Source: Candidatus Onthousia faecigallinarum
GTDB taxonomy: Bacteria > Bacillota_I > Bacilli_A > RF39 > UBA660
DNA length: 40,341 nucleotides
Assembly: GCA_018716225.1 (NCBI GenBank)
Contig: DVKE01000052.1
Coordinates: forward strand, 1-40,341
Reading direction: 5' to 3'
A program made the position numbers and the translations under genes. Position 1 is the stretch's first letter. Each line of letters starts with the position of its first letter. Below, piece by piece: positions 4,050-38,505 of this stretch. Below the pieces are notes generated by a model. That model was not told the DNA's origin. It searched no databases and saw only the letters and a program-made list of their open reading frames with translations.

Positions 4050-5978
4050 ATGAGAAAACAATTTTTTGTTTTAATTATGATGATTATGATAGGAATGGGT
4101 ATCTGTATCAATGTACGAGCGGAAGACAAAACTGGTTTTTTTGTGGAAAATGGTTCTTCCTATTATTATAAAAATGGCGTCATTCAAATGGGCATTACGG
4201 AGATTGAGGGAGAAAACTATTTTTTAGGCGAATATACCGGGAAAGTACAAGTAGGCTTTGTTACTTCTTCTTTAACAGGAGATCATTATTATACAGATTC
4301 TACTGGTAAGATTCAAACTGGTTTTGTTACGATTGGTGAGGATACTTATTATTTTGATCCAGATGGTAAATTACAATATGGTATTACAGAGGTAAATGGG
4401 GAAGATTATTTTTTAGGGGAATATACTGGAAAAGTACAAGTAGGCTTTGTTACTTCTTCTTTAACAGGGGATCATTATTATACAGATTCTACTGGTAAGA
4501 TTCAAACTGGTTTTGTTACGATTGGTGAGGATACTTATTATTTTGATTCTGATGGAAAACTACAATATGGTATTACGGAGATTGGGGGAGAAGATTACTT
4601 TTTAGGCGAATATACCGGGAAAGTACAAGTAGGTTTTGTTGCTTCTTCTTTGACAGGAGATCGTTATTATACGGATGAGAATGGAAAGATTTTAAAAGGA
4701 ATTACTGAATTAGAGGATGGGAGTTATTTCTTTGGTGAATATACTGGTAAAATACAGACCGGTTATGTACAATCTAGTTTGACGGGCAAGTATTATATTA
4801 CGGATGAAAATGGAAAGATTTATAAAGATTCTTTTGATTACAATGGAACAACTTATTACACCTTAGAAGATGGTAGTTTAATTGATGGCTTTTATGACAA
4901 GGAAGGAGCTCGTTACTATTATATTTTAGGGGTATTGCAATATGGTATTACGGAGATTGAGGGAGAAGATTACTTTTTAGGCGAATATACCGGGAAAGTA
5001 CAAGTAGGTTTTGTTACTTCTTTTTTGACAGGAGATCGTTATTATACGGATGAAAATGGAAAGATTTTAAAAGGGATTACCAAAATAGGAGATCAAAAGT
5101 ATTTTTTAGGAGAGTTAACCGGTAAAATACAGACTGGTTGGGTTACTGCTTTAGATGGTAAAATTTATTATACTAATCAAGAGGGAGTGATACAGACAGG
5201 AATTCAAACGATAGAAGGTCGAGTTTATAAATTTGATGAAAATGGTGTGATTGAGACAGGATTTCAAACGATTAATGGTAATACCTATTATTATGATGTG
5301 GATGGCACTATGGTGACAGGTGTTCAGAAAATTCAGGGCTCTTGGTATCGTTTTAATCCAGATGGCGTGTTGAGAGAACAAGGCTTCAAAAGAATTGCTG
5401 ATATTTCTTATCATCAAGGAAAAATTGATTGGGACACTTTGTGGTCTTCTGGTGAAATTGATGGTGTTATTTTAAGAATTGGTTATAATGGAGTTGAGGA
5501 TTCTTTGTTTAAAGAATATCTTAGCAATGTTAAACGGTTAAATATTCCTTATGGTGTTTATTTGTATAGCTATGCTCATAATCCGGCGGAAGCTATTTTT
5601 GAAGCGAATGCAACGGTACAAATGTTAAGTAAATACGATGTAAATCCTGATTATCCAGTTTATTATGATATCGAATCCTATTCTATTCCAAGTCAAAATG
5701 AAAGTTCGGATGATATTTCACAAGAAGATTATGAAGGAATGGTTTATAATTTTTCAAATCGTCTTCAGGCTGCTGGATATGAAACGAAAGTTTATACTTA
5801 TTTAAATTATGCTATGAATCGCTTTAATGAAAATACTAGAAGTATGGTAGATTGGATTGCTCATTATACTTCTTGGGACTGTGGATATGAACTTCCTCAC
5901 CGTGGTTGGCAATATACATCAACAGGACGCTTACCAGGGATTTCTACAAATGTTGATTTAAATATCTTTTATTATTAA
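4050..5978 (+). CDS. Cell-wall-binding-repeat GH25 lysozyme
   Basis: 642 residues from ATG 4050 after GAGGAGGT. A signal peptide ends near residue 25 (VRAED). Residues 28-445 are tandem aromatic/Gly repeats of the choline- or glucan-binding type (units such as GKIQTGFVTIGEDTYYFD). The C-terminal catalytic domain, residues 450-642, is a GH25 muramidase: ADISYHQGKIDW, the active-site pair D540-x-E542 in YYDIE, then WIAHY and WQYTSTG near the end. It should cleave the MurNAc-GlcNAc bond of peptidoglycan outside the cell. The catalytic domain at the C-terminus after the repeats is a common autolysin layout. Only 17 bases separate it from the next gene, so it may be co-transcribed with the glycan genes. 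Confidence 0.92.
   Translation: MRKQFFVLIMMIMIGMGICINVRAEDKTGFFVENGSSYYYKNGVIQMGITEIEGENYFLGEYTGKVQVGFVTSSLTGDHYYTDSTGKIQTGFVTIGEDTYYFDPDGKLQYGITEVNGEDYFLGEYTGKVQVGFVTSSLTGDHYYTDSTGKIQTGFVTIGEDTYYFDSDGKLQYGITEIGGEDYFLGEYTGKVQVGFVASSLTGDRYYTDENGKILKGITELEDGSYFFGEYTGKIQTGYVQSSLTGKYYITDENGKIYKDSFDYNGTTYYTLEDGSLIDGFYDKEGARYYYILGVLQYGITEIEGEDYFLGEYTGKVQVGFVTSFLTGDRYYTDENGKILKGITKIGDQKYFLGELTGKIQTGWVTALDGKIYYTNQEGVIQTGIQTIEGRVYKFDENGVIETGFQTINGNTYYYDVDGTMVTGVQKIQGSWYRFNPDGVLREQGFKRIADISYHQGKIDWDTLWSSGEIDGVILRIGYNGVEDSLFKEYLSNVKRLNIPYGVYLYSYAHNPAEAIFEANATVQMLSKYDVNPDYPVYYDIESYSIPSQNESSDDISQEDYEGMVYNFSNRLQAAGYETKVYTYLNYAMNRFNENTRSMVDWIAHYTSWDCGYELPHRGWQYTSTGRLPGISTNVDLNIFYY
4195..5080 (+). repeat. 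189-bp tandem coding repeats in the lysozyme
   Basis: The block beginning GTACAAGTAGG recurs at 4245, 4434 and 4623, exactly 189 bp (63 codons) apart, and again at 4998. The first two copies are near identical at DNA level for more than 110 bases. Such identity suggests recent duplication and makes copy number prone to change by recombination or slippage. Confidence 0.85.
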
Positions 5979-6001
5979 TAAGCTAGACGAGGAGAATGAA
6001 A

Positions 6002-7591
6002 ATGAGAAAAATAGAACTATTGGATTGTACTTTAAGGGATGGTGGTTATGTTAATGATAATCAGTTTGGGTATGAAAATATAAAACTTTTAATTAAATAT
6101 TTGGAAGAGGCCAAAATTGATTTGATTGAATGTGGCTATCTCATGGATACGGCCGAAGAGTATTCAAAAGATAAAACAGAATATCGTAGAATGGAAGAAT
6201 TAGAAGAACAACATCTGATCCCAAAAGAAAAAAAGTTTCAATATACTTTAATGCTTTTAGGCGAAAAATATATTATTGAACATTTACCAGATTGTAAAGA
6301 TTTTTCTTATATTCTTCGGATGTCTTTCCATAAAAAAAGTTTACCAAAAGCTATGGAATATGCTAAAAAAATTACAGAGAAAGGCTATCGCTTGTTTTTG
6401 CAGCCAACGGTAATTATGGGGTATAGTGATGATGAAATAAAAGAAATGATTCGTCTTTGTAATGAGAATTTATCTTTGGAGGGATTAGCCATTGTAGATA
6501 CTTTTGGACAAATGAAACCACAAGATATTATAAGATTGTCAAAATTATTTGATCAATATTTAGATCCTTCTGTTAAGCTTGCTTTTCATTCTCACAATAA
6601 TTTACAGATGGCCTATGCTAATGCTATTTCATTTATCGAAAATACTTCTAGTAATAGAAATCTTGTTATTGATAGTTCTATTTATGGTATGGGACGAGGA
6701 GCTGGCAATTTGCCAACGGAATTAATTGCTAATTATTTAAACGAGAAGGAAGGAAAAAATTATTCCTTGACTCCGTTATTAGAGGCTGCGGATAATGTTT
6801 TAGAAAAAATAAAAAAAGAGCATCCTTGGGGGTATTCTCTACCATATTATTTATCTGCTATTTATGCTTGTCATCCTTCCTATATTTTATATTTATTAAA
6901 TAAAAAGACTTTAGATAATAAAGATATTCATGAGATTGTGCAAATGATTAGTAGTCAAAAGAAAACAGAATACGACGCAGAATATATTGCAGAATTATAC
7001 CAAATTTATAATGATCATCATTATTCTGACCAAGTCTCTTATCAAAAATTGCAGCAGTTGATTCAAAATAAAACGATTCTTTTAATTGGTCCAGGGAAAA
7101 GCATTATAGAATATCATGATAAAATTGAAGAATATCAGAAAAAGCATGATTGTTTTACTATTGTAGTTAATAATCCTAATTTATATGATCATGATGCTGT
7201 TTTTTACAGTAATCGGAAAAGATATCAAGAATCTCAAGATCTTTTACATCCACAGGATATTAAGATATTAACTTCTAATATTAGTACGAATAGGGAAGAC
7301 AATTCTTTAATTTTTGATTATAGTCAATCTTTATCTAGAAATGGAGAAGTTTCTGATTCGGCTTTGTTAGTTTGTTTAAATATTTTGACAAAGGCAGGGG
7401 TTAAAAAAGTGGTACTAGCTGGGTTTGATGGCTTTGTTCCTAATTTTGAAAATAATTTTTATCAGAGTGATATTGCTTATTTGCTGGATAAAAATTATAT
7501 GGAGCAGTTGAATCATACAATGAAGGAAAATATCAAAAAATATCAAGAGAAGATGTTAATTAAAACAATTACACCTTCTAAGAATATTTAA
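6002..7591 (+). CDS. DRE-TIM aldolase fused to a GT42/DUF115-like domain
   Basis: 529 residues from ATG 6002. An in-frame ATG at 5996 is only one base after GAGGAG, so 6002 (spacing 7) fits better. Residues 3-270 match the HMGL-like/4-hydroxy-2-oxovalerate aldolase barrel: LDCTLRDGG with Arg12 and Asp13, the metal-binding HSHNN (His196, His198) and a GMGRGAGN loop. These enzymes use pyruvate or an acyl-CoA enolate. Residues about 358-525 are a second domain with GPGKSI, AVFYSN and VVLAGFDGF, reminiscent of GT42 sialyltransferases and DUF115/MptE proteins; this likeness is from memory. Followed by CMP-sugar genes, it may form the C-C bond of a 3-deoxy-ulosonic acid from pyruvate. The exact substrate is unknown. 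Confidence 0.75.
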   Translation: MRKIELLDCTLRDGGYVNDNQFGYENIKLLIKYLEEAKIDLIECGYLMDTAEEYSKDKTEYRRMEELEEQHLIPKEKKFQYTLMLLGEKYIIEHLPDCKDFSYILRMSFHKKSLPKAMEYAKKITEKGYRLFLQPTVIMGYSDDEIKEMIRLCNENLSLEGLAIVDTFGQMKPQDIIRLSKLFDQYLDPSVKLAFHSHNNLQMAYANAISFIENTSSNRNLVIDSSIYGMGRGAGNLPTELIANYLNEKEGKNYSLTPLLEAADNVLEKIKKEHPWGYSLPYYLSAIYACHPSYILYLLNKKTLDNKDIHEIVQMISSQKKTEYDAEYIAELYQIYNDHHYSDQVSYQKLQQLIQNKTILLIGPGKSIIEYHDKIEEYQKKHDCFTIVVNNPNLYDHDAVFYSNRKRYQESQDLLHPQDIKILTSNISTNREDNSLIFDYSQSLSRNGEVSDSALLVCLNILTKAGVKKVVLAGFDGFVPNFENNFYQSDIAYLLDKNYMEQLNHTMKENIKKYQEKMLIKTITPSKNI

Positions 7592-7604: not shown

Positions 7605-8351
7605 ATGAAAGTAGTTGCTGTAATTCCAGCGAGGTACCATTCTTCTCGTTTTCCAGGAAAACCCCTAGCTTTGATTGAAACAGAACCTATGATAGCTTGG
7701 GTTTATGGGCAAGTAAAACAGGTCAAAGAGATTGATGAAGTTGTTGTAGCCACGGATAATTTAGAAATCAAGAAGGTGTGTCAAGAGAAGGGAATGCAAG
7801 TAATATTAACGAAAGAAGATCATCCGACTAGTACAGAGCGTGTACAGGAGGTATCTGATTTTATTGATGCTGACCTTTATCTTGTAGTGAATGGTGATGA
7901 GCCTTTGATTGATCCTAAAATGATTGCTAAGATTATTCCAAAAGCACTTCCAGCGTCGGATAAGGTTTTTGTAGCCAATTTAATGACTAAAATTAAGGAT
8001 CCTGTAGAAGCGGTTGATTTTACTAATATTAAGGTTGTAACGGACCGTTTTTCCAATGCTATGTTTTTTTCAAGAAGTCCTATTCCTTATCCAAAAGGTA
8101 GTATGGATTATGATTATTATAAACATGTAGGTGTATTAATTTATAATAAAAAAGCACTGGATTTTTTTGCTAATACTCCAAAAGGATCTTGTGAAAGGAT
8201 TGAGGATGTCAATGAAATACGTTTTTTAGAAAATGGAGAAAAAATAAAAATGATCCCAGTGGAGAGTAAGAGTCTATCCGTAGATACACCAAAAGATTTA
8301 GAACATATTCGTCGTATCGTAAAGGAGAATCATTTATCGTGTTACCATTAA
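7605..8351 (+). CDS. kdsB: KdsB-like CMP-ulosonate cytidylyltransferase
   Basis: 248 residues, the usual KdsB length, from ATG 7605 after AAAGAGGTG. The nucleotide-binding N-terminus VIPARYHSSRFPGKP is the KdsB form rather than the NeuA form (IPARGGSKGIPGKN). VATDN, the NGDEPLIDP loop and the late RIEDVNEIRFLENG stretch also fit. The reaction would be CTP plus a 3-deoxy-ulosonic acid giving a CMP-sugar and pyrophosphate in the cytoplasm. Kdo itself is typical of Gram-negative envelopes, so in a Gram-positive this points to a Kdo-like sugar for a surface glycan. The sugar cannot be named from sequence. The gene overlaps the next by 13 bases. Confidence 0.85.
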   Translation: MKVVAVIPARYHSSRFPGKPLALIETEPMIAWVYGQVKQVKEIDEVVVATDNLEIKKVCQEKGMQVILTKEDHPTSTERVQEVSDFIDADLYLVVNGDEPLIDPKMIAKIIPKALPASDKVFVANLMTKIKDPVEAVDFTNIKVVTDRFSNAMFFSRSPIPYPKGSMDYDYYKHVGVLIYNKKALDFFANTPKGSCERIEDVNEIRFLENGEKIKMIPVESKSLSVDTPKDLEHIRRIVKENHLSCYH

Positions 8352-8803
8352 AAATGTTGGTTCTTGATGTAGATGGGACCTTAACGGATGGAAAAATTTA
8401 TATGGGTGAACATGGTGAGTTAATGAAAGCTTTTAACGCCCATGATGCTCAAGGACTAAGAAAGCTTCCAAAATTAGGAATTAAAACAGTGATTCTTACT
8501 GGAAGAGAATCGAGTATCGTTTTATTACGCGCGAAAGAGATGGATATTTCTTTTGTTTATCAAAAGGTCGTAAATAAAAAAGAAAAGTTAATGGAAATTG
8601 TAAAAGTAAATAATCTATCTTATCAAGAAGTTGGATATATTGGGGATGATGAAAACGATTTGGAAGCAATGCAATTATGTGGTTTTAAAGCTTGTCCTTT
8701 TGATGCTGTAGAAAAAATTAAGCAGATTGTTGATTATATTTCCCCATGTTCTTGTGGGGAGGCTGCGGTAAGAGAAATTATAGAGAATAAAATTTTAAAA
8801 TAG
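8339..8803 (+). CDS. KdsC-like HAD phosphatase
   Basis: 154 residues from GTG 8339, 13 bases inside the previous gene, with AAAGGAG at 8321-8327 (spacing 11). It is a capless HAD-IIIA phosphatase of the KdsC type: LVLDVDGTLTDG holds the nucleophile Asp and the acid/base Asp, TGRES holds motif II, and GDDENDLEAM holds motif III/IV. KdsC removes the phosphate from Kdo-8-phosphate before CMP activation. Its overlap with the KdsB-like gene implies co-translation and that the ulosonic acid is made as a phosphate. The aldolase upstream would then use a phosphorylated aldehyde; this is inference. Confidence 0.85.
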   Translation: MLPLKMLVLDVDGTLTDGKIYMGEHGELMKAFNAHDAQGLRKLPKLGIKTVILTGRESSIVLLRAKEMDISFVYQKVVNKKEKLMEIVKVNNLSYQEVGYIGDDENDLEAMQLCGFKACPFDAVEKIKQIVDYISPCSCGEAAVREIIENKILK

Positions 8804-8814
8804 GAGGAAGAAAG

Positions 8815-11556
8815 ATGATAGTACCTTTAATCTTTGAAAGTGAGGAATATATTAAACAAAAGCCGGCCTATTTATGGGTTTTTTATAAATTTTCTCGTTT
8901 TGCTCTTGATGCAGATAGTCCTATTATAGCTACAGAGGAATATTTTAAAAAGCCTTCTTATTATCGAGGACAAAAACATCCGGCCACGAATGTAATGGAT
9001 TATTATGGTATCAATGATGATTCTTTTGCTCATTTAAAAAAGTATGTTATTTCCAAGGAAAGTAAAGATAAAATTTTAAAAGGTTACGATTCTAATTTAA
9101 CTGCTTGGGTTTCTCTTCTGAAAGAAAGAAATATAGAATTAGAACGAATTTTAGAACAAGCGATTGAGACACTTGAAACTCAATATGAGAAAATAGAGGC
9201 TTTGATGGTATGGACTTATTTACCAAGTATTGATTATGTGGCTAAAAAACATCATATCACTTTAATTAATCAAGAGGGTAGTGCGATTCGGCAGCCGTTC
9301 TATAATCGATTATTAAATTATTTTCAATTTCAAAACAAATATGATACTTCTCATGTGCAAGAACGCTATTTAGAGTTTTCACGTTCTCAAGATACTTTAT
9401 TTCTTAGCCGAAAAGAGTTATTTGCTCTTTTGGTTGATCAAAAAAATTGGGGTTATCTAGATCAATTAAATATTTCTGCTTCTTTTGAAATTGGTTATGG
9501 TCTAGGAGTTGCTACAGATTGTTTTGCTAAAGTCTATTCCAAATGGGATCAAAACAAGGTATTAGACAAATTAAGTCATCTTACCGAATCAGAGAAAATT
9601 TTGATTCGACCTCATCCTAAAGAGCCAGTTGATTTATCAAAATGGAATTTTTCTTGTGATGATTCTCCTTCTTCTTTTGAATGGATTTTAAAGTGTAAAA
9701 GAATTGTAGCTGATTTGTCCAATGTTTCTTTCGAAGCGGCTTTTTTAGGAAAAACGGTGATATCACTTTCTAGTAGAATGCCCGTATCTTTTGGGAAAGA
9801 GAGTTCCCTTGATTTTTTAGAAGAAGATGTTATGAGTGTAAAACAATTGAACTTTTTGCTTTTCGCTTGGTTTGCTCCTGAAGAATTGACTCAGGATTTA
9901 GATTATGTAAGATGGCGTTTACAAAATCCTAGTCAAGTAGATATTTATAAAAAAAATCTAGATTATATTTTGCATTCTTTTGATATGAGTTATCAAGAAT
10001 TAAGGAAGATAGAACCAAAAAGAAGATTTTCTTATATATTAGAAAAAAGGCAAGTGAAATCTCTCGATAAAATAAGGGGAAGAGAAAAGTTTGAATTAAG
10101 GAGAAGTTTGAATATGAAAGACATTAATAGTTATGAAATGACGGCGTATGATTATCGTAAAATGATTTTAGAGTTAGAAAAAGAAAAAGATTCTTTAAAG
10201 GAAAATATCGAGGAGAAAGAGAATGAAATTTCAAAGTTAAATGAGAAATTAAAAGATTATCAAGTGGAATTAAATAATATTTTACATAGCCATAGTTGGA
10301 AAGTAACAAAGCCTTTGCGGAGTGTTTCTCGGTTGTTACATGGGGAAGAGAAAAAAGAAGTGGTAGAAATTCCCATTGAAGAGTCCAAAGAAAAAGAAGT
10401 AGTAGAAGGAACAGACTATCATGAATTTCCTGCTTATACGAGTGAATATCAAGCGGATGAAGATTTCTCTAAGTATCATACGGATATTAAGACACTTGCG
10501 TTTTATCTTCCTCAATTTCATACCTGTAAAGAAAATGATACTTGGTGGGGGAAAGGTTTTATGGAATGGACGAATACCAAAAAAGCACAACCTCGTTTTG
10601 AAGGACATTACCAACCTAGAATTCCCCATAAAGATATTTGTTATTATACCTTAGATAATATTGATACGATTAAAAAACAGGTAGATCTTGCGAAAGAACA
10701 TGGACTATATGGATTCTGTTTTTATTATTATTGGTTTAGTGGGAAACGTCTTTTGGAAAAACCAGTAGATTTGTATTTAGAAGATAAAAGTATTGATTTT
10801 CCTTTCTGTTTTTGTTGGGCTAATGAAAATTGGACTAGGACTTGGGATGGATTGAAAAATGATATTTTAATTGAACAAAAGTATCGAAAAGAAGATCCCA
10901 AACAATTCATCAAAGATTTAAAAAAATATTTTTTGGATTCTCGTTATATTCGAATTGATGGGAAACCGTTACTTTTAATTTATAATCCTTCTGAAATTCC
11001 TAATTTTAAAGAAACAATTGCTTTATGGCGTAAAACTGCTTTGGAAGAGGGGATTGGAGAGCTTTATCTTTTATCCAAATGTGATTTAGCGGATACCAGT
11101 TATCAATATTGTGAATATGTGGATGGAGAATTTGACTTTCCTCCTCAAGGAATTGGACATCCTGCTTCTAAAATCACGGGTCTTCCTTCCGAGAAAATAT
11201 TTAATTATGAAAAAATAGTAAGTGATATTGCCCATTTGTATCAAGAGCATTATCCCTTGAAGCCATTTTACTATACTGCTACTATGGGGTGGGATAATTC
11301 TTCTCGCCGTAAGGATGGTTATACAATTTATTATAATTATTCTTTAGAGGCTTTTTATAAGTGGTTAAGAATTATTATTGAACAGACACGAAGAAGACAC
11401 GACCCTACCAAACGTTTTATGTTTATCAATGCTTGGAATGAATGGGCAGAAGGTACTTACTTAGAACCAGATGAAAAATATGGTTATGCCAACATTAATA
11501 CTTTGTCAAAAGCTATTTTTGATTTACCTTTGGAAGATGAGAATCCGAAAGAATAA
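8815..11556 (+). CDS. Fusion: Kdo-transferase-like domain, coiled coil, WbsX/GH99-like domain
   Basis: 913 residues from ATG 8815 after AGGAGGAAG. Residues 1-400 have the pattern of KpsC/KpsS-type capsule transferases: LIRPHP (263-268) and VADLSNVSFEAAFLG (298-312), the paired phosphate/nucleotide-binding segments of beta-Kdo transferases. Residues about 445-490 are a charged coiled coil, followed by a short Arg/Leu segment and an acidic linker. Residues 560-905 are a clear WbsX domain (GH99-like): LAFYLPQFH, WWGKGFMEWTN, YYWFSGKRLLEKP, WANENWTRTWDG and NAWNEWAEGTYLEPD. It probably transfers the CMP-ulosonate made by the three upstream enzymes and trims or adds another sugar. The transferase assignment is inference; the WbsX assignment is firm. 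Confidence 0.8.
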   Translation: MIVPLIFESEEYIKQKPAYLWVFYKFSRFALDADSPIIATEEYFKKPSYYRGQKHPATNVMDYYGINDDSFAHLKKYVISKESKDKILKGYDSNLTAWVSLLKERNIELERILEQAIETLETQYEKIEALMVWTYLPSIDYVAKKHHITLINQEGSAIRQPFYNRLLNYFQFQNKYDTSHVQERYLEFSRSQDTLFLSRKELFALLVDQKNWGYLDQLNISASFEIGYGLGVATDCFAKVYSKWDQNKVLDKLSHLTESEKILIRPHPKEPVDLSKWNFSCDDSPSSFEWILKCKRIVADLSNVSFEAAFLGKTVISLSSRMPVSFGKESSLDFLEEDVMSVKQLNFLLFAWFAPEELTQDLDYVRWRLQNPSQVDIYKKNLDYILHSFDMSYQELRKIEPKRRFSYILEKRQVKSLDKIRGREKFELRRSLNMKDINSYEMTAYDYRKMILELEKEKDSLKENIEEKENEISKLNEKLKDYQVELNNILHSHSWKVTKPLRSVSRLLHGEEKKEVVEIPIEESKEKEVVEGTDYHEFPAYTSEYQADEDFSKYHTDIKTLAFYLPQFHTCKENDTWWGKGFMEWTNTKKAQPRFEGHYQPRIPHKDICYYTLDNIDTIKKQVDLAKEHGLYGFCFYYYWFSGKRLLEKPVDLYLEDKSIDFPFCFCWANENWTRTWDGLKNDILIEQKYRKEDPKQFIKDLKKYFLDSRYIRIDGKPLLLIYNPSEIPNFKETIALWRKTALEEGIGELYLLSKCDLADTSYQYCEYVDGEFDFPPQGIGHPASKITGLPSEKIFNYEKIVSDIAHLYQEHYPLKPFYYTATMGWDNSSRRKDGYTIYYNYSLEAFYKWLRIIIEQTRRRHDPTKRFMFINAWNEWAEGTYLEPDEKYGYANINTLSKAIFDLPLEDENPKE

Positions 11557-11607: not shown

Positions 11608-12351
11608 ATGGCAAAGAAAGATTCCGATATCGCAGTTGAAGTAAAAGATGTGACGAAATATTTTAAATTGTATTTTGATAAGCCAAATACTTTGAAAGAA
11701 CGTCTTGTCAATATTGGTCGAAATAAATCGGTAAAAAGAATTGTATTAGAGCATATTAATCTAACGATAAAAAAAGGAGAAACAGTAGCTTTAGTTGGTA
11801 CGAATGGAAGTGGGAAAAGTACTTTATTAAAGCTTATGACCAAAATTATCTATCCGAATAAGGGTCAAATTATTACCAATGGGAAATTAACTTCTTTACT
11901 TGAGTTGGGAGCTGGATTTCATCCGGATTTTACCGGAAGAGAAAATATTTATTTTAATGCTTCTATTTTTGGATTATCAAGAGAGGAAATTGATAAAAGA
12001 TTGCAATCTATTATTGATTTTTCTGAATTAGGAACTTTTATTGACAATCCAGTTCGAACTTATTCATCTGGTATGTATATGCGTCTTGCTTTTTCTATTG
12101 CGATCAATGTCGATGCTGAAATTTTATTAATTGATGAAATATTAGCGGTTGGAGATCAGCATTTCCAAGAAAAATGTTTTGAAAAATTGGAAGAGTTAAA
12201 AAAGAGTGATAAAACCATCGTGATTGTGACACATGATATGTCTGCCGTTCGCAAATTGTGTACGCGTGCTGTTTGGATTTATGAAGGGCATATCAGAATG
12301 GATGGGAAACCGAATGAAGTGGTAGATGAGTATTTAAAAATATGTCAGTAG
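11608..12351 (+). CDS. Polysaccharide ABC exporter ATP-binding protein (Wzt/TagH type)
   Basis: 247 residues from ATG 11608 after AAGGAGGAA. Walker A is GTNGSGKST (64-72, Lys70), the signature is YSSGMYMRLAFSIA (from 152), Walker B is ILLIDEILAVGD (from about 172) and the switch His lies in VTHDMS. The SSGM signature is typical of polysaccharide and teichoic-acid exporters (Wzt, TagH, RfbE). The length means that it has only the nucleotide-binding domain, without the C-terminal carbohydrate-binding domain of some Wzt proteins, so recognition of a modified chain end is unlikely. The permease starts nine bases later. Together they should export the lipid-linked polymer across the membrane. Confidence 0.92.
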   Translation: MAKKDSDIAVEVKDVTKYFKLYFDKPNTLKERLVNIGRNKSVKRIVLEHINLTIKKGETVALVGTNGSGKSTLLKLMTKIIYPNKGQIITNGKLTSLLELGAGFHPDFTGRENIYFNASIFGLSREEIDKRLQSIIDFSELGTFIDNPVRTYSSGMYMRLAFSIAINVDAEILLIDEILAVGDQHFQEKCFEKLEELKKSDKTIVIVTHDMSAVRKLCTRAVWIYEGHIRMDGKPNEVVDEYLKICQ

Positions 12352-12360
12352 GTGAGATAA

Positions 12361-13137
12361 ATGAAAGTATTTAAAGATTTATATCAGTATCGAGAATTAT
12401 TGAAGTCGAATGTAAAAAAAGAGATTCGTGGTAAATATAAAGGATCTTTTCTAGGGGTTTTATGGTCTTTTATTAATCCTTTACTAATGGTTTTGGTTTA
12501 TGCGATTGTATTTCCTTTGATTTTGAAAAATCCAGAACCTAATTATGTTATTTTCTTAATTGTAGGAATTATCCCGTGGAACTTCTTTACTACCGTTATC
12601 AATCAGGGAACAACGACGGTTGTCAATAATGGTAATATTATTAAAAAGGTTTATTTTCCAAGAGAGATCTTACCGATTTCTGTGGTTATGAGTGGCTTAG
12701 TAAATTTCTTTATTTCTTGTCTTATTATCTTAATCTTTATTATTTTTGGAGGGATGAGTCTTTCGCCTGTTATGTTATTCTTACCTTTGATTGCGATTAT
12801 TCAATTTATGCTTTCTTTAGGTTTGGTTTTCATTCTAAGTGCAATTGATGTTTATGTACGAGATACGGAATATATTGTAAATTTTATTGTTATGATGTTA
12901 TTTTATGCTACGCCAATTTTATATTCGAGTGAATTGTTTAAACATACCACCTTTGCTTGGATTATGCAAGTAAATCCTATGGCCCATCTTATCAATGCTT
13001 ATCGCGATATTTTCTATTATCAAGTGATGCCAGATATGAAAACTTTAGGAATTGTGGCTCTTGTTAGTTTTGCTATTATGGTAATTGGCTATCAAGTCTT
13101 TAAGAAATTAGAAAGACGTTTTGCTGAGGAATTGTAA
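12361..13137 (+). CDS. Polysaccharide ABC exporter permease (Wzm/TagG type)
   Basis: 258 residues from ATG 12361, with an AGGTGAG ribosome binding site that overlaps the preceding stop. It is an ABC-2 type membrane protein with about six transmembrane helices. The N-terminal cytoplasmic segment RELLKSNVKKEIRGKYKGSF and the following LGVLWSFINPLLM are the family hallmark that contacts the ATPase, and the NPM...YRDIFYY segment near the end is also conserved. It forms the channel for the exporter with the upstream ATPase. Use of an ABC exporter instead of a Wzx/Wzy pair implies that the chain is completed in the cytoplasm. Confidence 0.92.
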   Translation: MKVFKDLYQYRELLKSNVKKEIRGKYKGSFLGVLWSFINPLLMVLVYAIVFPLILKNPEPNYVIFLIVGIIPWNFFTTVINQGTTTVVNNGNIIKKVYFPREILPISVVMSGLVNFFISCLIILIFIIFGGMSLSPVMLFLPLIAIIQFMLSLGLVFILSAIDVYVRDTEYIVNFIVMMLFYATPILYSSELFKHTTFAWIMQVNPMAHLINAYRDIFYYQVMPDMKTLGIVALVSFAIMVIGYQVFKKLERRFAEEL

Positions 13138-21550: not shown

Positions 21551-21579
21551 TAGACAACTTTATTGGTTAATGCTACACT
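21551..21579 (+). promoter_or_regulatory. Internal promoter before the GtrB-like genes
   Basis: TAGACA (21551-21556), exactly 17 bases, TACACT (21574-21579), with an extended TG at 21571-21572. A start near 21586 excludes the in-frame TTG at 21563 as start codon and supports ATG 21605. Confidence 0.6.
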
Positions 21580-21604
21580 AAAGGTGTTGGAGGAAGTGAA
21601 AGAG

Positions 21605-22618
21605 ATGAAAAAGAAAGAAAAAGATCAAGAAGAGGGGCAAGTTTTAAAAGAAAAACAAGCTATTTTATATATTGTTATACCTTGTTATAATGAAGAACCT
21701 GTTTTGGAGGAGACAACAAGACAATTAAAGGTTAAAATGGAAAAATTAATCAAAGAAAAGAAGATTAGTCCTATGAGTCGAGTTATGTATGTTAATGATG
21801 GTAGTAAAGATAAGACTTGGGAATTAATTCAAAAGATTCATAAACAAGAACCTTTGTTTACGGGTATTTGTCTTTCTCGCAATCGAGGGCATCAAAATGC
21901 TTTACTAGCTGGTTTGATGACCGCTAAAAATTATGCTGATGTTGTGATTAGCATGGATGCTGACTTGCAAGATGATATTAATGCAATTGATGAGATGATC
22001 GATAAATATTATGCGGGAAATGATATTGTTTATGGCGTTCGTAGTAAAAGAAAGAAAGACACATGGTTTAAAAGGGTTACTGCGGAAGGTTTTTATAAGT
22101 TTATGAGTAAGATGGGGGTTGATATTGTATATAATCATGCCGATTATCGTCTTACTAGTAAACGAGTATTGAATTATCTAGAAGATTATAAAGAAGTTAA
22201 TTTGTTTTTAAGAGGAATCTTTCCTTTAATTGGTTTTTCTTCTGATGTTGTTTATTATGAACGGAACGAAAGATTTGCAGGAGAGAGTAAGTATCCTTTA
22301 AAGAAAATGTTATCTTTTGCTTGGGATGGTATTACTTCTTTTTCCATTAAACCAATTAAAATGGTATTGAATCTTGGAATTATTATCTTTATTGTGAGTA
22401 TTATTGTGCTAATTTATTGTCTTGTTGTAAAATTTCTGGGGAATACCGTTGCTGGTTGGACTTTTACTACTTGCTCTATTTGGTTAGTAGCAGGTCTTGA
22501 GATGTTATCCCTTGGTATTATTGGAGAATATGTTGGAAAGATTTATAGTGAAACGAAAGCAAGACCTAGATATATTATTTCTAGAAATTTAAACGAGGAA
22601 GAGAAAAGTGAAAAATAA
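21605..22618 (+). CDS. GtrB/DPM1-like polyprenyl-phosphate glycosyltransferase
   Basis: 337 residues from ATG 21605, with GGAGGA at 21589-21594 and a promoter directly upstream. The GT2 domain has YIVIPCYNEEPVLEET, VNDGSKDKTWELI, SRNRGHQNALLAGLMTA, the metal-binding MDADLQDD, and the DYRLTSKRVL and GESKYPLKKM segments typical of bactoprenol glucosyltransferases (GtrB, YkoT, YkcC). Two transmembrane helices lie at the C-terminus. It should make an undecaprenyl-phosphate sugar on the inner face for use by a GT-C enzyme outside. The sugar cannot be told. The end overlaps the next gene by 11 bases. Confidence 0.9.
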   Translation: MKKKEKDQEEGQVLKEKQAILYIVIPCYNEEPVLEETTRQLKVKMEKLIKEKKISPMSRVMYVNDGSKDKTWELIQKIHKQEPLFTGICLSRNRGHQNALLAGLMTAKNYADVVISMDADLQDDINAIDEMIDKYYAGNDIVYGVRSKRKKDTWFKRVTAEGFYKFMSKMGVDIVYNHADYRLTSKRVLNYLEDYKEVNLFLRGIFPLIGFSSDVVYYERNERFAGESKYPLKKMLSFAWDGITSFSIKPIKMVLNLGIIIFIVSIIVLIYCLVVKFLGNTVAGWTFTTCSIWLVAGLEMLSLGIIGEYVGKIYSETKARPRYIISRNLNEEEKSEK

Positions 22619-23549
22619 AATAGCGGTTTTAATTCCATGTTACAATGAATCAAAAACGATAGAAAAAGTGGTAAAGGATTATAAACAAGCTTTGCCTGAA
22701 GCGGACATTTATGTTTATGATAACAATTCTAGTGATGGAACAGACGAGATTGCTCGTAAAGCGGGTGCTATTGTAAAATATGAATATCGGCAAGGGAAAG
22801 GGAATGTTATCCGTAGTATGTTTCAAGATATTGAGGCGGATTGTTATTTAATGATTGATGGGGATGATACTTATCCTGCCGAAAATGCGAGAGAGATGTG
22901 CGATCTTATTCTAGAAGGAAAAGCCGATATGGTTATAGGAGATCGTCTTTCTTCTACCTATTTTACCGAAAATAAAAGACCTTTTCATAGTCTTGGAAAT
23001 CTCTTGGTAAGAGGACTGATCAATAAACTCTTTAAAAGTAATGTTCATGATATTATGACGGGATATCGGGCTTTTAGTTATGAATTTGTGAAAACCTTTC
23101 CCGTGTTATCGCAAGGGTTTGAGATTGAAACAGAAATGACAATTCATGCTTTGGATAAAAACTTTTTATTAAAAGAAATTCCTGTAAATTATCGAGATCG
23201 ACCAGCAGGTAGTATCTCAAAACTAAATACTTATCGTGATGGTTTTCGGGTTTTAAAAACAATTGCTCGTTTATTTAAAGAATATAAACCAACTATTTTT
23301 TTTAGTATTATTGGTTTGATCTTTTTGATTATTTCGGTCGTATTTGCTGTACCTGTTTTTGCAGAATATTTTGAAACAGGGTTAGTACCACGTTATCCAA
23401 CTTTGATTTTCTCTGGTTTTATGTTAATCGTTTCTATTTTAATGTTTGTTTGTGGGGTTTTGCTGGAAGTTGTTGTGAAAAAACATCGCCAATTATTTGA
23501 GCTTATTTTGATTCAGATAAAGGAGGATAAGAAAAATGAAGAAGGATAA
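22608..23549 (+). CDS. Second GtrB-like glycosyltransferase
   Basis: 313 residues from GTG 22608, overlapping the previous gene by 11 bases, with GAGGAAGAG upstream. GT2 domain: VLIPCYNESKTIEKVV, YDNNSSDGTDEIA, GKGNVIRSMF, MIDGDDTYPA, TGYRAFSYEFVKTFP, GFEIETEMTIHAL and YRDRPAGSISKLNTYRDG. Two transmembrane helices near residues 225-247 and 262-285. This is the DPM1-like group often placed beside GtrA proteins. It differs clearly from the first GtrB-like protein, so the two probably load different sugars. This matches the presence of two GT-C enzymes in the same cluster, a pairing that I infer. Confidence 0.88.
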   Translation: MKNKIAVLIPCYNESKTIEKVVKDYKQALPEADIYVYDNNSSDGTDEIARKAGAIVKYEYRQGKGNVIRSMFQDIEADCYLMIDGDDTYPAENAREMCDLILEGKADMVIGDRLSSTYFTENKRPFHSLGNLLVRGLINKLFKSNVHDIMTGYRAFSYEFVKTFPVLSQGFEIETEMTIHALDKNFLLKEIPVNYRDRPAGSISKLNTYRDGFRVLKTIARLFKEYKPTIFFSIIGLIFLIISVVFAVPVFAEYFETGLVPRYPTLIFSGFMLIVSILMFVCGVLLEVVVKKHRQLFELILIQIKEDKKNEEG

Positions 23550-23988
23550 TGCTAGTGTTTTTGTTAAGAAGTGTTTAAAAATATTTCATATTAAGGTAAA
23601 ACCGAAAACGGAAAAATTATTAATTCAGATCTTTAAATTTGGAATTGTGGGAGTTATTGCAACCGTCATTGATTTTGCTTTTCTTTATCTTTTCCGAGAA
23701 TTTCTTCATTTTCCAGTTCTTTTGGCGAATACGTTATCATTTTGTATTTCCGTGATTTATAACTATACCGCTAGTGTCAAATGGGTATTTGATGTCAATA
23801 AAGAAAAAGATGCTAGAAAGCAGTTTGTGATTTTTATTATCTTTAGTGTGATTGGCTTATTATTAAATGATTTGATTATGTGGGTAAGCACTGATTTACT
23901 ATCTATTTATTACTTACTTGCTAAAATTATTGCAACCCTTATTGTAATGGTCTTTAATTTTGTAACGAGAAAATTATTTTTGGAATGA
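23536..23988 (+). CDS. GtrA-like membrane protein
   Basis: 150 residues from ATG 23536 after AAAGGAGGA, 14 bases inside the previous gene. After a basic N-terminus it has four transmembrane helices. The family features are FKFGIVGVIATVIDFAFLYLF, ANTLSFCISVIYNYT and the C-terminal IATLIVMVFNFVTRKL. GtrA proteins are proposed to flip or help move undecaprenyl-phosphate sugars across the membrane. It closes the glycan locus, and a terminator follows. Confidence 0.92.
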   Translation: MKKDNASVFVKKCLKIFHIKVKPKTEKLLIQIFKFGIVGVIATVIDFAFLYLFREFLHFPVLLANTLSFCISVIYNYTASVKWVFDVNKEKDARKQFVIFIIFSVIGLLLNDLIMWVSTDLLSIYYLLAKIIATLIVMVFNFVTRKLFLE

Positions 23989-31977: not shown

Positions 31978-33687
31978 ATGAAAAATAAAGGAAGAAATTT
32001 GAGAATGTTTGTTTTTATAAATCTTTTTGGGATTGTTTTGCTTTCTTTGTCATCTTATCTTCTTGTATTTTTTCAAACTTCAAGAGCAGCGACTGGAGAT
32101 CCTCCAGAATCTTTTCATGGTTCTTATACAGAAGGTGTTCCTTTTTGGGGCAGTTATGCTCTGTATCAAACCATTTCTGGTACGGATCAGATTGTTTATT
32201 GTTATGATCACTTATTAGATCCAATGAATGGAATTATGGTATTAAAAGGAGAATTAACGGATAAAGGATTACTTTATATTATTCAAAACGGTTATCCAAA
32301 CAATCCAAATATTTGTAGTGGTACCTATATGGATAAATACATGGTTACACAGTATGCTATTTGGATTTATAAAGATCGTTATATTTTGGGGATTGCCGAT
32401 AATGTAGATGGTGAAATTGCTGCGGGGGGACAATTTGGAAAAATTAATCTTTTAAATAGTTTTGGAGAATATTCTATAGCAATTCAAAATCTATTGGCAG
32501 GAGCCGAAGCAGCTAGGAATGCACCAGATCCAAATTATAGTTTGAAGAATAGTACTTTCACATTTAGTGCTTCTGGAAATAATTATGTAAGCTCTAGTAT
32601 TGGTATAGATCAAGACACAGATTTTACTAGTTATACGATAACAAGTATTTCTGCTCCTGCTGGATATTATTTAACGACTAATACTGGCCGAACAATCCAA
32701 AGTGATGCGGTAACAAGCACTGTTTTTGCGAAAGATGAAACCTTTCAGGTTATTTTCCCTGCTAGCGGTCTGACTCCGAATGATATAATGGTCGATATGA
32801 AAATTACTGCTTCTGCTACCGTTAGCAAAGCATATATGTATGCTCCTGAAACGCCAGGTATGCAAGATGGACTTTTGACAACGATGTACGATGAGGATGT
32901 CACAGCTTCAGCTTCTTTAACCGGAATGATACCTCTAGGTCAGATTAAAATAATCAAAACGTATATGAATCCTTTGACCGGTGAAACGGGAACGCTAGGA
33001 GGAGCTCACTTAAGAATAACGGAGGAAGGGGGAACATTTACTCTTCTCAGCACGACAGAAGATAGTCCTAAAATAATAACAGGACTTTTACCTGGTAAAA
33101 CTTATCTTATTACTGAAACGGATGCCCCTGCTGGTTATACTATTAACACGAGAACTTATAAAGTGACAATTACGATGGATGACTGTTTTGCTTCTACGGA
33201 TGACTTGCAGGTAGTTACCATTCAAGATTATAAAATTGTAGTTCGACTGAATAAACGCGATATAACAACGAACCAAGCATTACCAAATGCCAAAGTGCGA
33301 ATCACTGCTCCTAGTATTTCTTATAGCCAAGAAATAACAACAACCTCAAGCTACGTGGAAATACCGAATGTTCAATCAGAAGTTCGCTATACGGTAGAGG
33401 AAATAGAAGCACCAAGTGGATATATGCTTCCAGAAGAGCCTTTTGAGTTTGAAATTTCAAAAGAGGGATTAATAAATGTAGTGAATACTTCAGAAAATTA
33501 TGAGGTAAATCCTGGACCAGGTATTATCACAATTACGATCAAAGATCGAGCTTATGATCAATTGCCAAATACAGGTGGTAGTGGTATTTATCCTTATTTA
33601 TTCGTAGGAATTGTTTTGGTTGGAGTTGGCATAAGTGGTTATGTTTTCTATCGAAAAAAAATAAGAAAAGAAAATAAGCGTTCTTGA
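31978..33687 (+). CDS. LPNTG-anchored thioester-domain adhesin
   Basis: 569 residues from ATG 31978 after GAGGAGGT. The signal peptide ends near residue 38 (SRAA). Residues 40-300 look like a thioester domain: Cys75 in VYCYD and Gln125 in VTQYAIW are the pair that forms the internal thioester in adhesins such as S. pyogenes Cpa. Two CnaB/SpaA-like domains follow (about 322-410 and 412-505), each with a Lys near its start (IIKTY, RLNKRD) and a Glu in ETDAPAGY or EEIEAPSGY for isopeptide bonds. The tail is LPNTG (529), a helix and a basic end. The gene ends with TGA. It is probably the pilus-tip adhesin binding host protein covalently; that role is inference. Confidence 0.88.
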   Translation: MKNKGRNLRMFVFINLFGIVLLSLSSYLLVFFQTSRAATGDPPESFHGSYTEGVPFWGSYALYQTISGTDQIVYCYDHLLDPMNGIMVLKGELTDKGLLYIIQNGYPNNPNICSGTYMDKYMVTQYAIWIYKDRYILGIADNVDGEIAAGGQFGKINLLNSFGEYSIAIQNLLAGAEAARNAPDPNYSLKNSTFTFSASGNNYVSSSIGIDQDTDFTSYTITSISAPAGYYLTTNTGRTIQSDAVTSTVFAKDETFQVIFPASGLTPNDIMVDMKITASATVSKAYMYAPETPGMQDGLLTTMYDEDVTASASLTGMIPLGQIKIIKTYMNPLTGETGTLGGAHLRITEEGGTFTLLSTTEDSPKIITGLLPGKTYLITETDAPAGYTINTRTYKVTITMDDCFASTDDLQVVTIQDYKIVVRLNKRDITTNQALPNAKVRITAPSISYSQEITTTSSYVEIPNVQSEVRYTVEEIEAPSGYMLPEEPFEFEISKEGLINVVNTSENYEVNPGPGIITITIKDRAYDQLPNTGGSGIYPYLFVGIVLVGVGISGYVFYRKKIRKENKRS

Positions 33688-33712
33688 AAGTAATTTTAGA
33701 ATATGATAGAAT
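33684..33712 (+). promoter_or_regulatory. Promoter inside the pilus locus
   Basis: TTGAAA (33684-33689), 17 bases, TAGAAT (33707-33712), with extended TG at 33704-33705. Its -35 overlaps the stop codon of the adhesin gene. It may drive the pilin and sortase genes independently of the first adhesin. Confidence 0.6.
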
Positions 33713-33740
33713 GTATTTAATAATAAGGTAGAGGTAGCGA

Positions 33741-35410
33741 ATGAAAAAGACGATTACGATTAATACATTGCTTATCATTTCTATATTAGGTTGTCTTCTA
33801 TTTTCTTACCGACAAGTGAGTTTAGCAGCTCCTGACGAAAGACCACCAGATTCTATTGATGCGGCAAGAGAATCTATCATTACAGCTGATTGGGATCGAG
33901 GGGATAATTCGATTAAAAAAATTACTTCTACAGGTGAAGTTATCTATTGTTGGGATTATGCTACTCCTTGGTAAGATGGGAAGAGATTGCCGATAAGGGT
34001 TTGGCTTGGATTATTTTAAATGGTTATCCTTATAAAAATCCTTTGGAAGGAATCAGTGGAGTGAGTATGGATACTCATGATCAGAATGCCGTAACCCAAT
34101 ATGCAGTATGGATTTATAAAGAGCGTTATATTATGGGACTTTCTGATGATCAAGATGGCAAATGCCAGCTTCGGAGAAGAATTGGATTTTATATAATGCG
34201 GAGCCTTATAGTACGGCAGTTCGAAATTTAATTGAACAAGCTCATCAAGTAGCTCAACAAAGTGATCCTTCTTTTGATATTACTTTTCAAACAACGAACA
34301 TAACCTTGTCGGCCTCTAGAGATGGACAAAGCTTTATTTCTTCTATGATTGGTTTAAAAAATAACTCAAACTTTAGTGATTTTACTGTTTCTATTACAGT
34401 TCCTGCGGGGTATTATCTTTTGTTTAATGGGAAACAAGTAGGGGCCAATGAGGTTGCTAGTACTGTTTTTCCAAAGGGCTCACAATTTCAATTGGTTATT
34501 CCCATTGATGCGATTAATCATTCTAATCGTAAAATTCGAGTTACCATTCATGCGACCGCGGTTGTGGAAAGACAGACGGTTTATTCCTATACTCATGATG
34601 GAGGAGGACAAGCTGGATTGTTAGCGTGAGTTTATTCTGAAACAGTGGAAGCAGAAACGACTGATACGATTTATATTCCAACTGCAGGACTATATCTTGA
34701 AAAGACTTATCAAAATCCTATGACAGTAGCCAAGGGTAATTTAGCTGGAGCGACTATTCACATTGAATCGGCAGATGGATATTATTCGAAAGATTATGTT
34801 ACAACTTCTATTCGACTTTTTGTTAATGATCTTTTGCCTGGCACTTATACTATTACAGAAACGGTCGCACCCGTTGGCTATATTAAAAGTTCTCAGACTT
34901 ATACTGTTGAAATTGATGCGAATGATTGTTATACCCCAATGGGAAGTATTCCAACTTATTCTTTTGTCAATACTGCTATTGTGGTACGAATCATCAAAGA
35001 AGATATGACTACAAGAGAAGCCCTGGCGGGGGCGACGATACAAATTATACCTAGTAATAGTTCCCCATATAGCATTACTTCGACCACTGAACCTTATCTT
35101 TTATTAAATGTTTCTACAGGTGTAACTTACACGGTGAAAGAGTTGGTCGCTCCTCCTGGTTATTTAGTACCATCCGATAGCTTTCAGATTACTTCTTCTG
35201 GAACGATTCAAGTGCTAAAAATTTCTTTATAATTATCGAGTCAATCCGGGGCCAGGAATTATTACGATTTATGTTTCGGATCGTCAAGTTGGTGTGTTAC
35301 CAAACACCGGAGGATCGGGAATTGGAGTTTATCTTATCACGGGTTCTATTTTACTTGCAATAGGAGCTGTGGGACTTATTTTCTATCTAAGAAGGAGGCG
35401 TAAAAAATGA
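33741..35410 (+). pseudogene. Decayed second thioester-domain adhesin (LPNTG)
   Basis: The reading frame is a paralogue of the adhesin at 31978 split into five pieces. It starts at ATG 33741 with a signal peptide and keeps the thioester Cys (VIYCWD). The frame shifts near 33950-33975, again near 34160, and a third time near 35220-35232. An in-frame TGA lies at 34627-34629. The pieces still encode TQYAVW with the thioester Gln, two CnaB-like domains (LEKTYQNP...ETVAPVGY; IIKEDMTT...ELVAPPGY), NPGPGIITI and LPNTGGSG with a C-terminal helix. At the TGA the paralogue has Thr, not Trp, so codon reassignment does not explain it. The final TGA overlaps the next gene's ATG (ATGA). Sequencing errors could mimic some of the shifts. 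Confidence 0.85.
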
Positions 35411-36081
35411 TAAAAAAAATAAAAATTACTATTTTAGTCTTTCTAATTTTCTTTGGCTTTGGTATGATAGAAGTGTATGCTGATAATATAGATCCAACGA
35501 GGGTATCCTTTCTTACACTTCGTTATCAGTATGATGATATTCTGATTCGAGATACGGGTATTTCTATCTATTATGTCGCAACGATTGATGAGGAGGCAAA
35601 ATTTACACCTGTTTCTTCCTTTCGAGATTTAAATGTTCCCTTAGAAGGTGATAGTGCTTCTTCTTGGCAAGAAGTAAGCAATGAAGTGTATGATTATGTA
35701 GAATCCAATCACTTAGAACCTTTGAAAAGAGCTTTAACCGATCAAGAGGGGAAAGTGGTTTTTACCGATTTACAACCAGGTTTATATTTAGTGGTAACGG
35801 ATGCTAAAGAGTTGGGAGATTTGATTTATTCTTCTTCTCCATCTCTTGTATCTATTCCTTTATTAGATGATATGAATGAGGAGTATCTTTACGATGTTGA
35901 TGCAAATGTCAAAACGGAGGTAACGGAAGTTCCTCCTGAGATTACGCCACCGAACACAATGGATTATTACTTTGCGGATGCTATGTTATTCCTAGTGTTC
36001 CTATTGGTTTCCATCATTTTGATTTCATATATATTAAAATTACAGAAGAAGGAAAGGAGAAAAGAAAATGAAAAGAAATAA
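35407..36081 (+). CDS. Minor (basal) pilin with atypical sorting signal
   Basis: 224 residues from ATG 35407, overlapping the previous stop as ATGA, after AAGGAGG. Signal peptide to about residue 25 (VYA). One CnaB-like domain includes KVVFTDLQPGLYLVVTD. The C-terminus has a spacer VPPEITPPNTM, a 20-residue helix and a Lys/Arg-rich tail. The pentapeptide PPNTM (181-185) sits where LPxTG would be. Position and size suit the basal pilin that links the shaft to the wall. The odd motif may be read by the class B-like sortase of this locus; that is inference. It overlaps the backbone pilin gene by 14 bases. Confidence 0.8.
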   Translation: MIKKIKITILVFLIFFGFGMIEVYADNIDPTRVSFLTLRYQYDDILIRDTGISIYYVATIDEEAKFTPVSSFRDLNVPLEGDSASSWQEVSNEVYDYVESNHLEPLKRALTDQEGKVVFTDLQPGLYLVVTDAKELGDLIYSSSPSLVSIPLLDDMNEEYLYDVDANVKTEVTEVPPEITPPNTMDYYFADAMLFLVFLLVSIILISYILKLQKKERRKENEKK

Positions 36082-37594
36082 AATTTTAACTCTTCTGACT
36101 ATTTTAGCTTTGATGCTATTTGGAACAATGAATGTTCAAGCTGCAACATCGATTACAACGAATCCCTCGAGACCTGGTACAACCGATACGGGAAGTCGTT
36201 ATGTCACAAATCAATCAACAATTACTATCAATGGGGTAGTATCAACCGATCACTTGAGTGCTTATAAAATCTTGGATGTATACTATAATAGTTCTACCAA
36301 TCAAATCACTTATGAATTTACTTCTGATTTTAAAGCTTTTCAAGCCCAAAATTCTACTTATCGGAATTTAACAGTGGATGAATATTATGATTTGACCAGT
36401 GGTAGTACTTCTGGTAGTACACAATCTCCATCTAGTACTTTGGATGCACTAGCGAGTGCTTATGCTGCTTATATTAAATCAGATGGTGGGGTTACTGGTA
36501 CACCAATGAATGTTTCTGGTACAAGAGCAACTCTAACTGCTGATGCTGGTACTTATTTAATTTTACCGACTCAGACTATGAATGTATATGCGGTTATGGT
36601 AGGTAATTTGGACTTTTCGGTAGAAGGTTCTGCTTGGAATTTAAATTCTGCTACGATTGCGGCAAAAGTAAGTGAAGTAGGAATTGATAAGTCTGTTACA
36701 ACTGAAGGAAATAAGGAAGATTCTTATTCATTTAATGAAAAATACAATTACATTATTAATGCAACCGTGCCACTATATCCATCCAACGCTATTCGTAAAA
36801 ATTATATTATTCACGACCACTTAGACGCAGGAATTACTTTTGATGATGTTTCTAATTTTGTTGTGAAAGATGGTACTAGCACTTTAACAATTTCAAGAAC
36901 AAGTGCTACAGAGGCTTATGTTAGCAAAGGAGGAAGTGATCGTGTTGCGCAAATTCGAATTAACGGACAAGATTTAACCATTACTTTTTATGTTGATCAA
37001 CTTACTTCAACGGATTTAACGATTACTTATTCTGCTCATTTGAATGATGATGCTGTTTTAGGAGCAGTTGGAAATAAAAATAGCGTTACTTTAGAGTATT
37101 CAAACGATCCATATGGAACTTCTGATTATACTACAGAACCTGTTGATACAACAGTTTATACTTATGGACTTGAGATTTTTAAACATTATTTAAATGGGGG
37201 AAGTAAAGTAGGACTTGGAAATGCGACTTTTGAAATTTACTCTGACTCTCAGTTACAACATTCCGTTGGAACGATTAAAACAGCTTCGAATGGACATGGT
37301 ACATTAGCAGGATTAAAAGAAGGTACTTACTACATAAAGGAAACCGTAGCCCCTACTGGTTATGCTTTGTTAAGAGATTCGATTCAAATTGAACTTAATG
37401 AAGATACGGCTACGAATGGTACTGTTACAGGTTATTATTTAAGAGAAATTGCGAATGCACCTACGGGAACATTACCATCTACTGGTGGTATGGGTACTAT
37501 TCTTTATACTGCTATTGGTATCGGTATTATGGCCGCTGCTGTAGCTATTATTGTTATTTATCGCAAAAAGAAAATGAATCAACAAAATAGTTAA
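36068..37594 (+). CDS. Backbone pilin with isopeptide domains (LPSTG)
   Basis: 508 residues from ATG 36068 after AAAGGAG. Signal peptide ends near 25 (VQAA). Residues 30-195 form an N-terminal domain with low-complexity Ser/Thr/Gly (SGSTSGSTQS). IAAKVSEVGIDKSV around 198-210 is the likely boundary; Lys200 is a candidate for the polymerising pilin-motif Lys. Residues 205-365 are a fimbrial D2-like domain. Residues 366-460 are a CnaB domain (LEIFKHYLNGG, ETVAPTGY). LPSTG (469-473), a helix and KKK complete the sorting signal. It should be the polymer shaft of the pilus, joined by the class C sortase downstream. Confidence 0.9.
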   Translation: MKRNKILTLLTILALMLFGTMNVQAATSITTNPSRPGTTDTGSRYVTNQSTITINGVVSTDHLSAYKILDVYYNSSTNQITYEFTSDFKAFQAQNSTYRNLTVDEYYDLTSGSTSGSTQSPSSTLDALASAYAAYIKSDGGVTGTPMNVSGTRATLTADAGTYLILPTQTMNVYAVMVGNLDFSVEGSAWNLNSATIAAKVSEVGIDKSVTTEGNKEDSYSFNEKYNYIINATVPLYPSNAIRKNYIIHDHLDAGITFDDVSNFVVKDGTSTLTISRTSATEAYVSKGGSDRVAQIRINGQDLTITFYVDQLTSTDLTITYSAHLNDDAVLGAVGNKNSVTLEYSNDPYGTSDYTTEPVDTTVYTYGLEIFKHYLNGGSKVGLGNATFEIYSDSQLQHSVGTIKTASNGHGTLAGLKEGTYYIKETVAPTGYALLRDSIQIELNEDTATNGTVTGYYLREIANAPTGTLPSTGGMGTILYTAIGIGIMAAAVAIIVIYRKKKMNQQNS

Positions 37595-37597
37595 TTT

Positions 37598-38491: not shown

Positions 38492-38505
38492 GAAAGGACT
38501 ACATC

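Follow-up and report, generated by a model that had tools for sequence, protein, structure and literature searches.

A GT99-coiled coil-WbsX fusion protein with an altered donor pocket, a possible cap-adding enzyme for an ABC-exported glycan of Candidatus Onthousia faecigallinarum

The stretch of DNA from the gut bacterium Candidatus Onthousia faecigallinarum analysed here (contig DVKE01000052.1, positions 1 to 40,341, hereafter the window) encodes a 913-amino-acid protein in which a GT99 glycosyltransferase module is followed by a coiled coil and a WbsX domain. We put at about even the chance that it is an enzyme of the terminator-ruler-polymerase type serving an ABC-exported surface glycan, with GT99 as the N-terminal module that adds the cap. 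A broader reading, whose probability falls a little short of that, is that the Gram-positive GT99 branch has switched its donor from Kdo to another CMP-3-deoxy-ulosonate, formed by a pyruvate aldolase and not by a PEP-dependent synthase, and caps such a glycan from an interchangeable N-terminal slot on a coiled coil-WbsX scaffold. The retaining ulosonate transferases characterised so far come from Gram-negatives, with a supposedly invariant QxxxD motif. A coherent Gram-positive clade with catalytic residues kept, donor pocket altered, CMP-sugar genes adjacent and KdsA and NeuB unmatched suggests an acidic sugar and a pathway not yet described. The recurring layout of a cap enzyme, a coiled coil and WbsX suggests that the use of exchangeable modules for capping extends beyond the O-antigen examples already known, and it makes the role of the WbsX domain testable.

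The gene and its parts are all on the forward strand, as follows (window positions, with the evidence in brackets):

8802..8807, +, Shine-Dalgarno-like AGGAGG (sequence)
8815..11556, +, GT99-coiled coil-WbsX fusion protein, 913 aa (open reading frame with ATG start)
8815..10044, +, GT99 module, residues 1-410 (Pfam PF21912, WbbB profile match, model, Z to WbbB)
10144..10284, +, coiled-coil helix, residues 444-490, proposed ruler or spacer (modelled helix, heptad test)
10288..10338, +, SHSWKVTKPLR helix, residues 492-508 (modelled helix 493-508, recurring motif)
10495..11502, +, WbsX domain, GH99-like barrel, residues 561-896 (Pfam, predicted structure)

Two Pfam families cover most of the protein, PF21912 (Glyco_transf_99) at residues 16-173 (E=3.9e-21, 76.4 bits against a curated cut-off of 27) and PF14307 (Glyco_tran_WbsX) at residues 561-896 (E=9.4e-120, 400.7 bits, over its cut-off); these matches and the heptad pattern between them far exceed chance. 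In a sequence search of the PDB, residues 16-390 match the solved WbbB (E about 6e-14), and the same comparison made with a 13-sequence profile places WbbB at E 3e-38. The model of residues 1-545, with pLDDT mostly 85-98 across residues 1-410, shares with WbbB its modified GT-B fold (Z 35.7 across 363-377 residues; Foldseek 1.8e-21), against Z 12-13 for KpsC and KrkA and about 9 for unrelated UDP-sugar or sugar-nucleotide enzymes. The GT99 fold and family assignment of residues 1-410 are thus held with very high confidence. KpsC (GT107) and KrkA (GT140) share the architecture of retaining ulosonate transferases; their structural similarity is far below that of WbbB, and according to the papers describing them both retain QxxxD. 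The preliminary description of this DNA had recognised a Kdo-transferase-like domain, fused via a coiled coil to a full WbsX domain, by its RPHP and DLSNVSFEA segments. Pfam, the PDB search and the heptad test bear this out: RPHP occupies positions 265-268 of the protein and DLSNVSFEA positions 300-308, WbsX is present as a complete domain, and the N-terminal fold is related to those of WbbB and KpsC (Z about 13), two of the proteins with which it had proposed a comparison.

For O antigens exported by ABC transporters, the terminator is placed at the distal tip of a coiled coil that serves as a ruler, and the opposite end carries polymerase modules or recruitment sites (PMC11231755). WbbB of Raoultella terrigena and K. 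pneumoniae O12 (GT99-coiled coil-GT102-GT103) and the protein described here have in common the N-terminal GT99 fold, the catalytic Glu, Asp and His, a coiled coil, a C-terminal module that is catalytic in WbbB and putatively so here, and Wzm/Wzt neighbours. They differ in sequence (about 22% identity, GxxxD for QxxxD, N179 and S233 replaced), in the C-terminal module, here WbsX and not GT102/GT103, in a Wzt devoid of a carbohydrate-binding module and in the host, a Gram-positive without a KdsA match. As in the WbbB and WbdD terminators, the presumptive terminator module is distal to the coiled coil and an ABC transporter belongs to the cluster, although the Wzt of those systems carries the cap-binding carbohydrate module that is missing here. 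The transporter genes lie directly downstream:

11608..12351, +, Wzt/TagH-like ABC ATPase, 247 aa (a length that leaves no room for a carbohydrate-binding module)
12361..13137, +, Wzm-like ABC permease

ABC_tran is the sole Pfam match of this ATPase, whose E. coli relative has 443 aa.

The model shows a single helix of 47 residues (444-490), with 86% of its heptad a/d positions hydrophobic, a value equalled by none of 5000 shuffles; applied to the E. coli WbbB-type protein, the heptad test was not significant across the stretch chosen. Oligomerisation or membrane association, suggested earlier for this segment, is too vague a description and misses the ruler role established for such coiled coils (PMC11231755). 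A short helix (493-508) bearing SHSWKVTKPLR comes next, and its SWKxTKPLR motif is also seen at the C-terminal end of stand-alone GT99s and, in other proteins, ahead of WbsX. It could be a docking helix for the membrane or for a partner; its amphipathic moment lacks significance, with 495 of 5000 shuffles reaching one as high, so binding to the membrane is only a guess.

The same coiled coil-SWK-WbsX core (residues 431-909) reaches 46-57% identity among the closest loci, and it is found unchanged in plan in methyltransferase-coiled coil-WbsX-RgpF proteins (e.g., loci L020 and L032 in our labelling). At the N-terminus these have a methyl-, sulfo- or pyruvyl-transferase where the fusion has GT99, and more glycosyltransferase modules come after WbsX. 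Among 13 other WbsX proteins, whose hand-picking makes the tally illustrative, ten carry such an enzyme in the N-terminal slot (methyltransferase in seven, pyruvyltransferase in two, sulfotransferase in one), and RgpF, GT2 or GT4 modules follow WbsX in most of them. Another GT99-domain match appeared in just one of 50 genomes with WbsX relatives. The order of modules shared with WbbB, the Wzt and Wzm genes directly downstream and the cap-type enzymes in the slot of the homologues together support a cap-adding role for the GT99 module, which we propose with moderate confidence. Against it speak the Wzt without a cap-reading module and the shortness of the coiled coil.

The main competing explanation is a bifunctional polymerase, in which GT99 and WbsX would take turns, one adding the ulosonate and the other a second sugar, and so build the repeat. 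There is a precedent in KrkA, a Kdo transferase (GT140) fused to a second sugar-transfer unit with ribosyltransferase modules, which builds the whole repeat of the E. coli K13 capsule (PMC12887879), and the protein described here is likewise a predicted two-activity fusion. A Wzt that cannot read a cap also fits this explanation, as export would then not need one. However, a coiled-coil spacer separates GT99 from WbsX, the enzymes that take the place of GT99 in homologous WbsX proteins are of the type that adds caps other than sugars, and polymerisation could be carried out by several further GT2 enzymes of the cluster. We consider the bifunctional polymerase rather unlikely on balance.

The cap-adding reading requires a donor, and the residues and genes that bear on it are the following, beginning with the active site of the GT99 module:

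9274..9276, +, E154, equivalent to the general base Glu158 of WbbB (alignment)
9505..9519, +, G231-V-A-T-D235, an altered QxxxD in which D235 corresponds to the nucleophile Asp232 and Gly stands for Gln228 (profile alignment)
9607..9618, +, R265-P-H267-P268, CMP-binding (K/R)xHP motif, with H267 corresponding to His265 of WbbB (alignment)
9712..9738, +, DLSNVSFEA, residues 300-308, region of NSSVGLEA in WbbB (alignment)
5996..7591, +, HMGL/DmpG-like pyruvate aldolase (residues 1-290) with a C-terminal domain of no known family, proposed ulosonate-forming enzyme
7605..8351, +, KdsB-like CMP-ulosonate synthetase
8339..8803, +, KdsC/YrbI-like HAD phosphatase

The double-displacement mechanism of WbbB relies on Asp232 for nucleophilic attack, on Glu158 as the base and on His265 to donate a proton to the phosphate, and the role of the WbbB QxxxD motif has been described in the same work (PMC9587256); (K/R)xHP is the CMP-binding motif (PMC12887879). 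All three catalytic residues are retained in the alignment (E154, D235, H267), together with Arg163 and the RxHP motif. The donor pocket is another matter. The Gln of QxxxD, described as invariant, touches the Kdo carboxylate; it is Gln in all four Gram-negative sequences, whereas the 14 Bacilli sequences have Gly (13) or Ser (1). At the position of Asn179, which in WbbB touches O8 or O4 of Kdo, every one of the 14 Bacilli sequences has Tyr or Phe; Ser233 is substituted in all 14 as well, and Arg12 is seemingly lost, in a part where the alignment is uncertain. The GT99 of genome G452 is without the Asp, a point against the reading proposed here. Judged from these alignments, the Bacilli GT99s are predicted to retain catalysis with an altered sugar pocket, which we read as a changed donor; a compensated Kdo site could also account for it. 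A natural Cys nucleophile (Cys236) was suggested when the sequence alone was aligned with WbbB D232C, and was discarded, as the wild-type profile alignment puts D235 at that position.

A CMP-sugar synthetase gene adjoins GT99 in 11 of the 12 loci of the family that could be assessed given contig ends (the window, G187, G421, L013, G206, G079, G419, G316, G409, G325, and G452; G004 is the one without it), and this linkage strongly implies a CMP-activated donor, with high confidence in a CMP-ulosonate. Use of a CMP-ulosonate had been put forward in the preliminary description: the CMP-activated donor stands, while Kdo itself is not supported, given the replaced pocket residues and the missing KdsA and NeuB matches. 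Co-occurrence of the fusion with the three CMP-sugar genes in other genomes, which it had proposed as a check, holds for two of them, since all five known GT99-WbsX fusions adjoin both aldolase and synthetase (an aldolase is also found at the G079 locus), but the KdsC-like phosphatase adjoins GT99 in the window only, being otherwise found just in G398, on a different contig. Five GT99 genomes with the synthetase gave no aldolase match, and their source of ulosonate is unexplained.

By family and sequence matches, the aldolase resembles pyruvate aldolases, and its condensation of pyruvate with an aldose (or aldose phosphate) would give a 3-deoxy-2-ulosonate; a literature search for an aldolase-based CMP-ulosonate route returned nothing usable. 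Neither KdsA nor NeuB was matched in the 14 GT99 genomes, in searches that were positive in control genomes. A PEP-dependent route is therefore unlikely, and the probable donor is some other 3-deoxy-ulosonate, produced via the neighbouring pyruvate-aldolase homologue; our confidence that it is not Kdo is moderate. The C-terminal domain of the aldolase, of about 240 residues and without a confident Pfam match, is found in close relatives, is missing in G079 (330 aa) and has nearly all gone in G206 (356 aa). The synthetase has NGDEP, as do most of the Bacilli partners, and this change parallels the loss of Gln in GT99.

It is improbable, and more so than the bifunctional polymerase, that the module is an ordinary beta-Kdo transferase acting on CMP-Kdo in which Gly merely stands in for Gln. 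The synthetase does exceed the cut-off of one NCBIfam KdsB subfamily, the catalytic residues are kept and a KdsC-like phosphatase is present in the window locus, although it scores under the KdsC equivalog cut-off and, in the synthetase, NGDEP takes the place of the QGDEP seen in the solved Kdo synthetases shown. Q228A left WbbB severely compromised (PMC9587256); as the change merely impairs the enzyme, Gly might be tolerated with Kdo. Here, however, Q228, N179 and S233 are substituted together, and KdsA went unmatched in every GT99 genome tested.

With a donor other than Kdo and a cap-adding GT99, the protein could work as follows. The neighbouring aldolase and CMP-sugar synthetase, here also with the phosphatase, would supply a CMP-activated 3-deoxy-ulosonate, probably not Kdo. 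The GT99 module would bind it, D235 attacking the anomeric carbon, H267 protonating the CMP phosphate and E154 activating the acceptor hydroxyl, and the ulosonate would be transferred with retention onto the chain's non-reducing end. The coiled coil would oligomerise and keep the cap-adding site at a distance from WbsX; at the membrane side, this barrel would act on the chain, most probably by glycosyl transfer. RmlB scored above cut-off in nine of 12 GT99 genomes, which would support a rhamnose acceptor as in WbbB; the draft genome that contains the window gave no RmlB match.

The WbsX domain contains one pair of residues to be added to those above:

11440..11451, +, E876 and E879, equivalent to the catalytic Glu pair of GH99 (alignment)

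Both align with the glutamates of GH99 NEWHEG (here NEWAEG) and do not vary across 83 WbsX sequences, and this protein keeps the invariant residues of the family. The model of the domain (pLDDT 94) has GH99 endo-mannosidases as its nearest structures (Foldseek E 9.5e-13), a match that is loose in structural terms (TM 0.55-0.62, rmsd 6-8). The barrel fold and the NEWxEG glutamates are shared with those enzymes, unlike which the WbsX protein has no evident signal peptide and is fused to glycosyltransferase modules. Pfam labels PF14307 a glycosyltransferase from context only, and a literature search on WbsX/GH99-like function gave nothing usable, the activity of PF14307 not being established there. 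The domain may act by transfer and not by hydrolysis, a role that we assign with low confidence. A cytoplasmic endo-hydrolase trimming or editing the chain modified by GT99 would explain the GH99-like fold and both conserved Glu, but we find it the least probable of the alternatives, given how loose that match is, the embedding of WbsX among glycosyltransferase modules in many bacteria and the Pfam name, itself from context.

Within the window's family, GT99 matches above or near cut-off came from no more than 13 genomes. Outside that family no genome sampled from the wider class and phylum had one, and the wider sampling added a single weak sub-threshold match from within it. GT99 is also present in Enterobacteriaceae, Aeromonas, and Rhizobium, with a degenerate copy on a Subdoligranulum plasmid. 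In the tree, the five WbsX fusions form one clade (100/99) and the Gram-negative GT99s another (100/99), and the stand-alone GT99s of the family mostly terminate in a coiled coil with the SWKxTKPLR motif. Two divergent copies deserve mention. One (L100, G419:C77, 1653-5165) is a relic without the CMP-binding half, fused to a long HAD-like-looking stretch in an open frame of 1171 aa. The plasmid homologue of Subdoligranulum variabile (L131, 9001-10881) lacks the HP histidine and has an altered nucleophile region; it adjoins a CMP-sugar-synthetase-like gene, and a long coiled coil follows.

Immediately 5' of the aldolase, a position kept in related loci, there is a choline-binding GH25 lysozyme-like protein (4050-5978), which hints at a phosphocholine-bearing wall. 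The GT2, GT2, and GtrA genes at 21563-23988, preceded by two membrane GT-C-like genes, resemble an extracytoplasmic decoration system of the Gtr type. Downstream of the glycan cluster, two sortases and pilin-like LPXTG proteins are encoded at 31978-39297.
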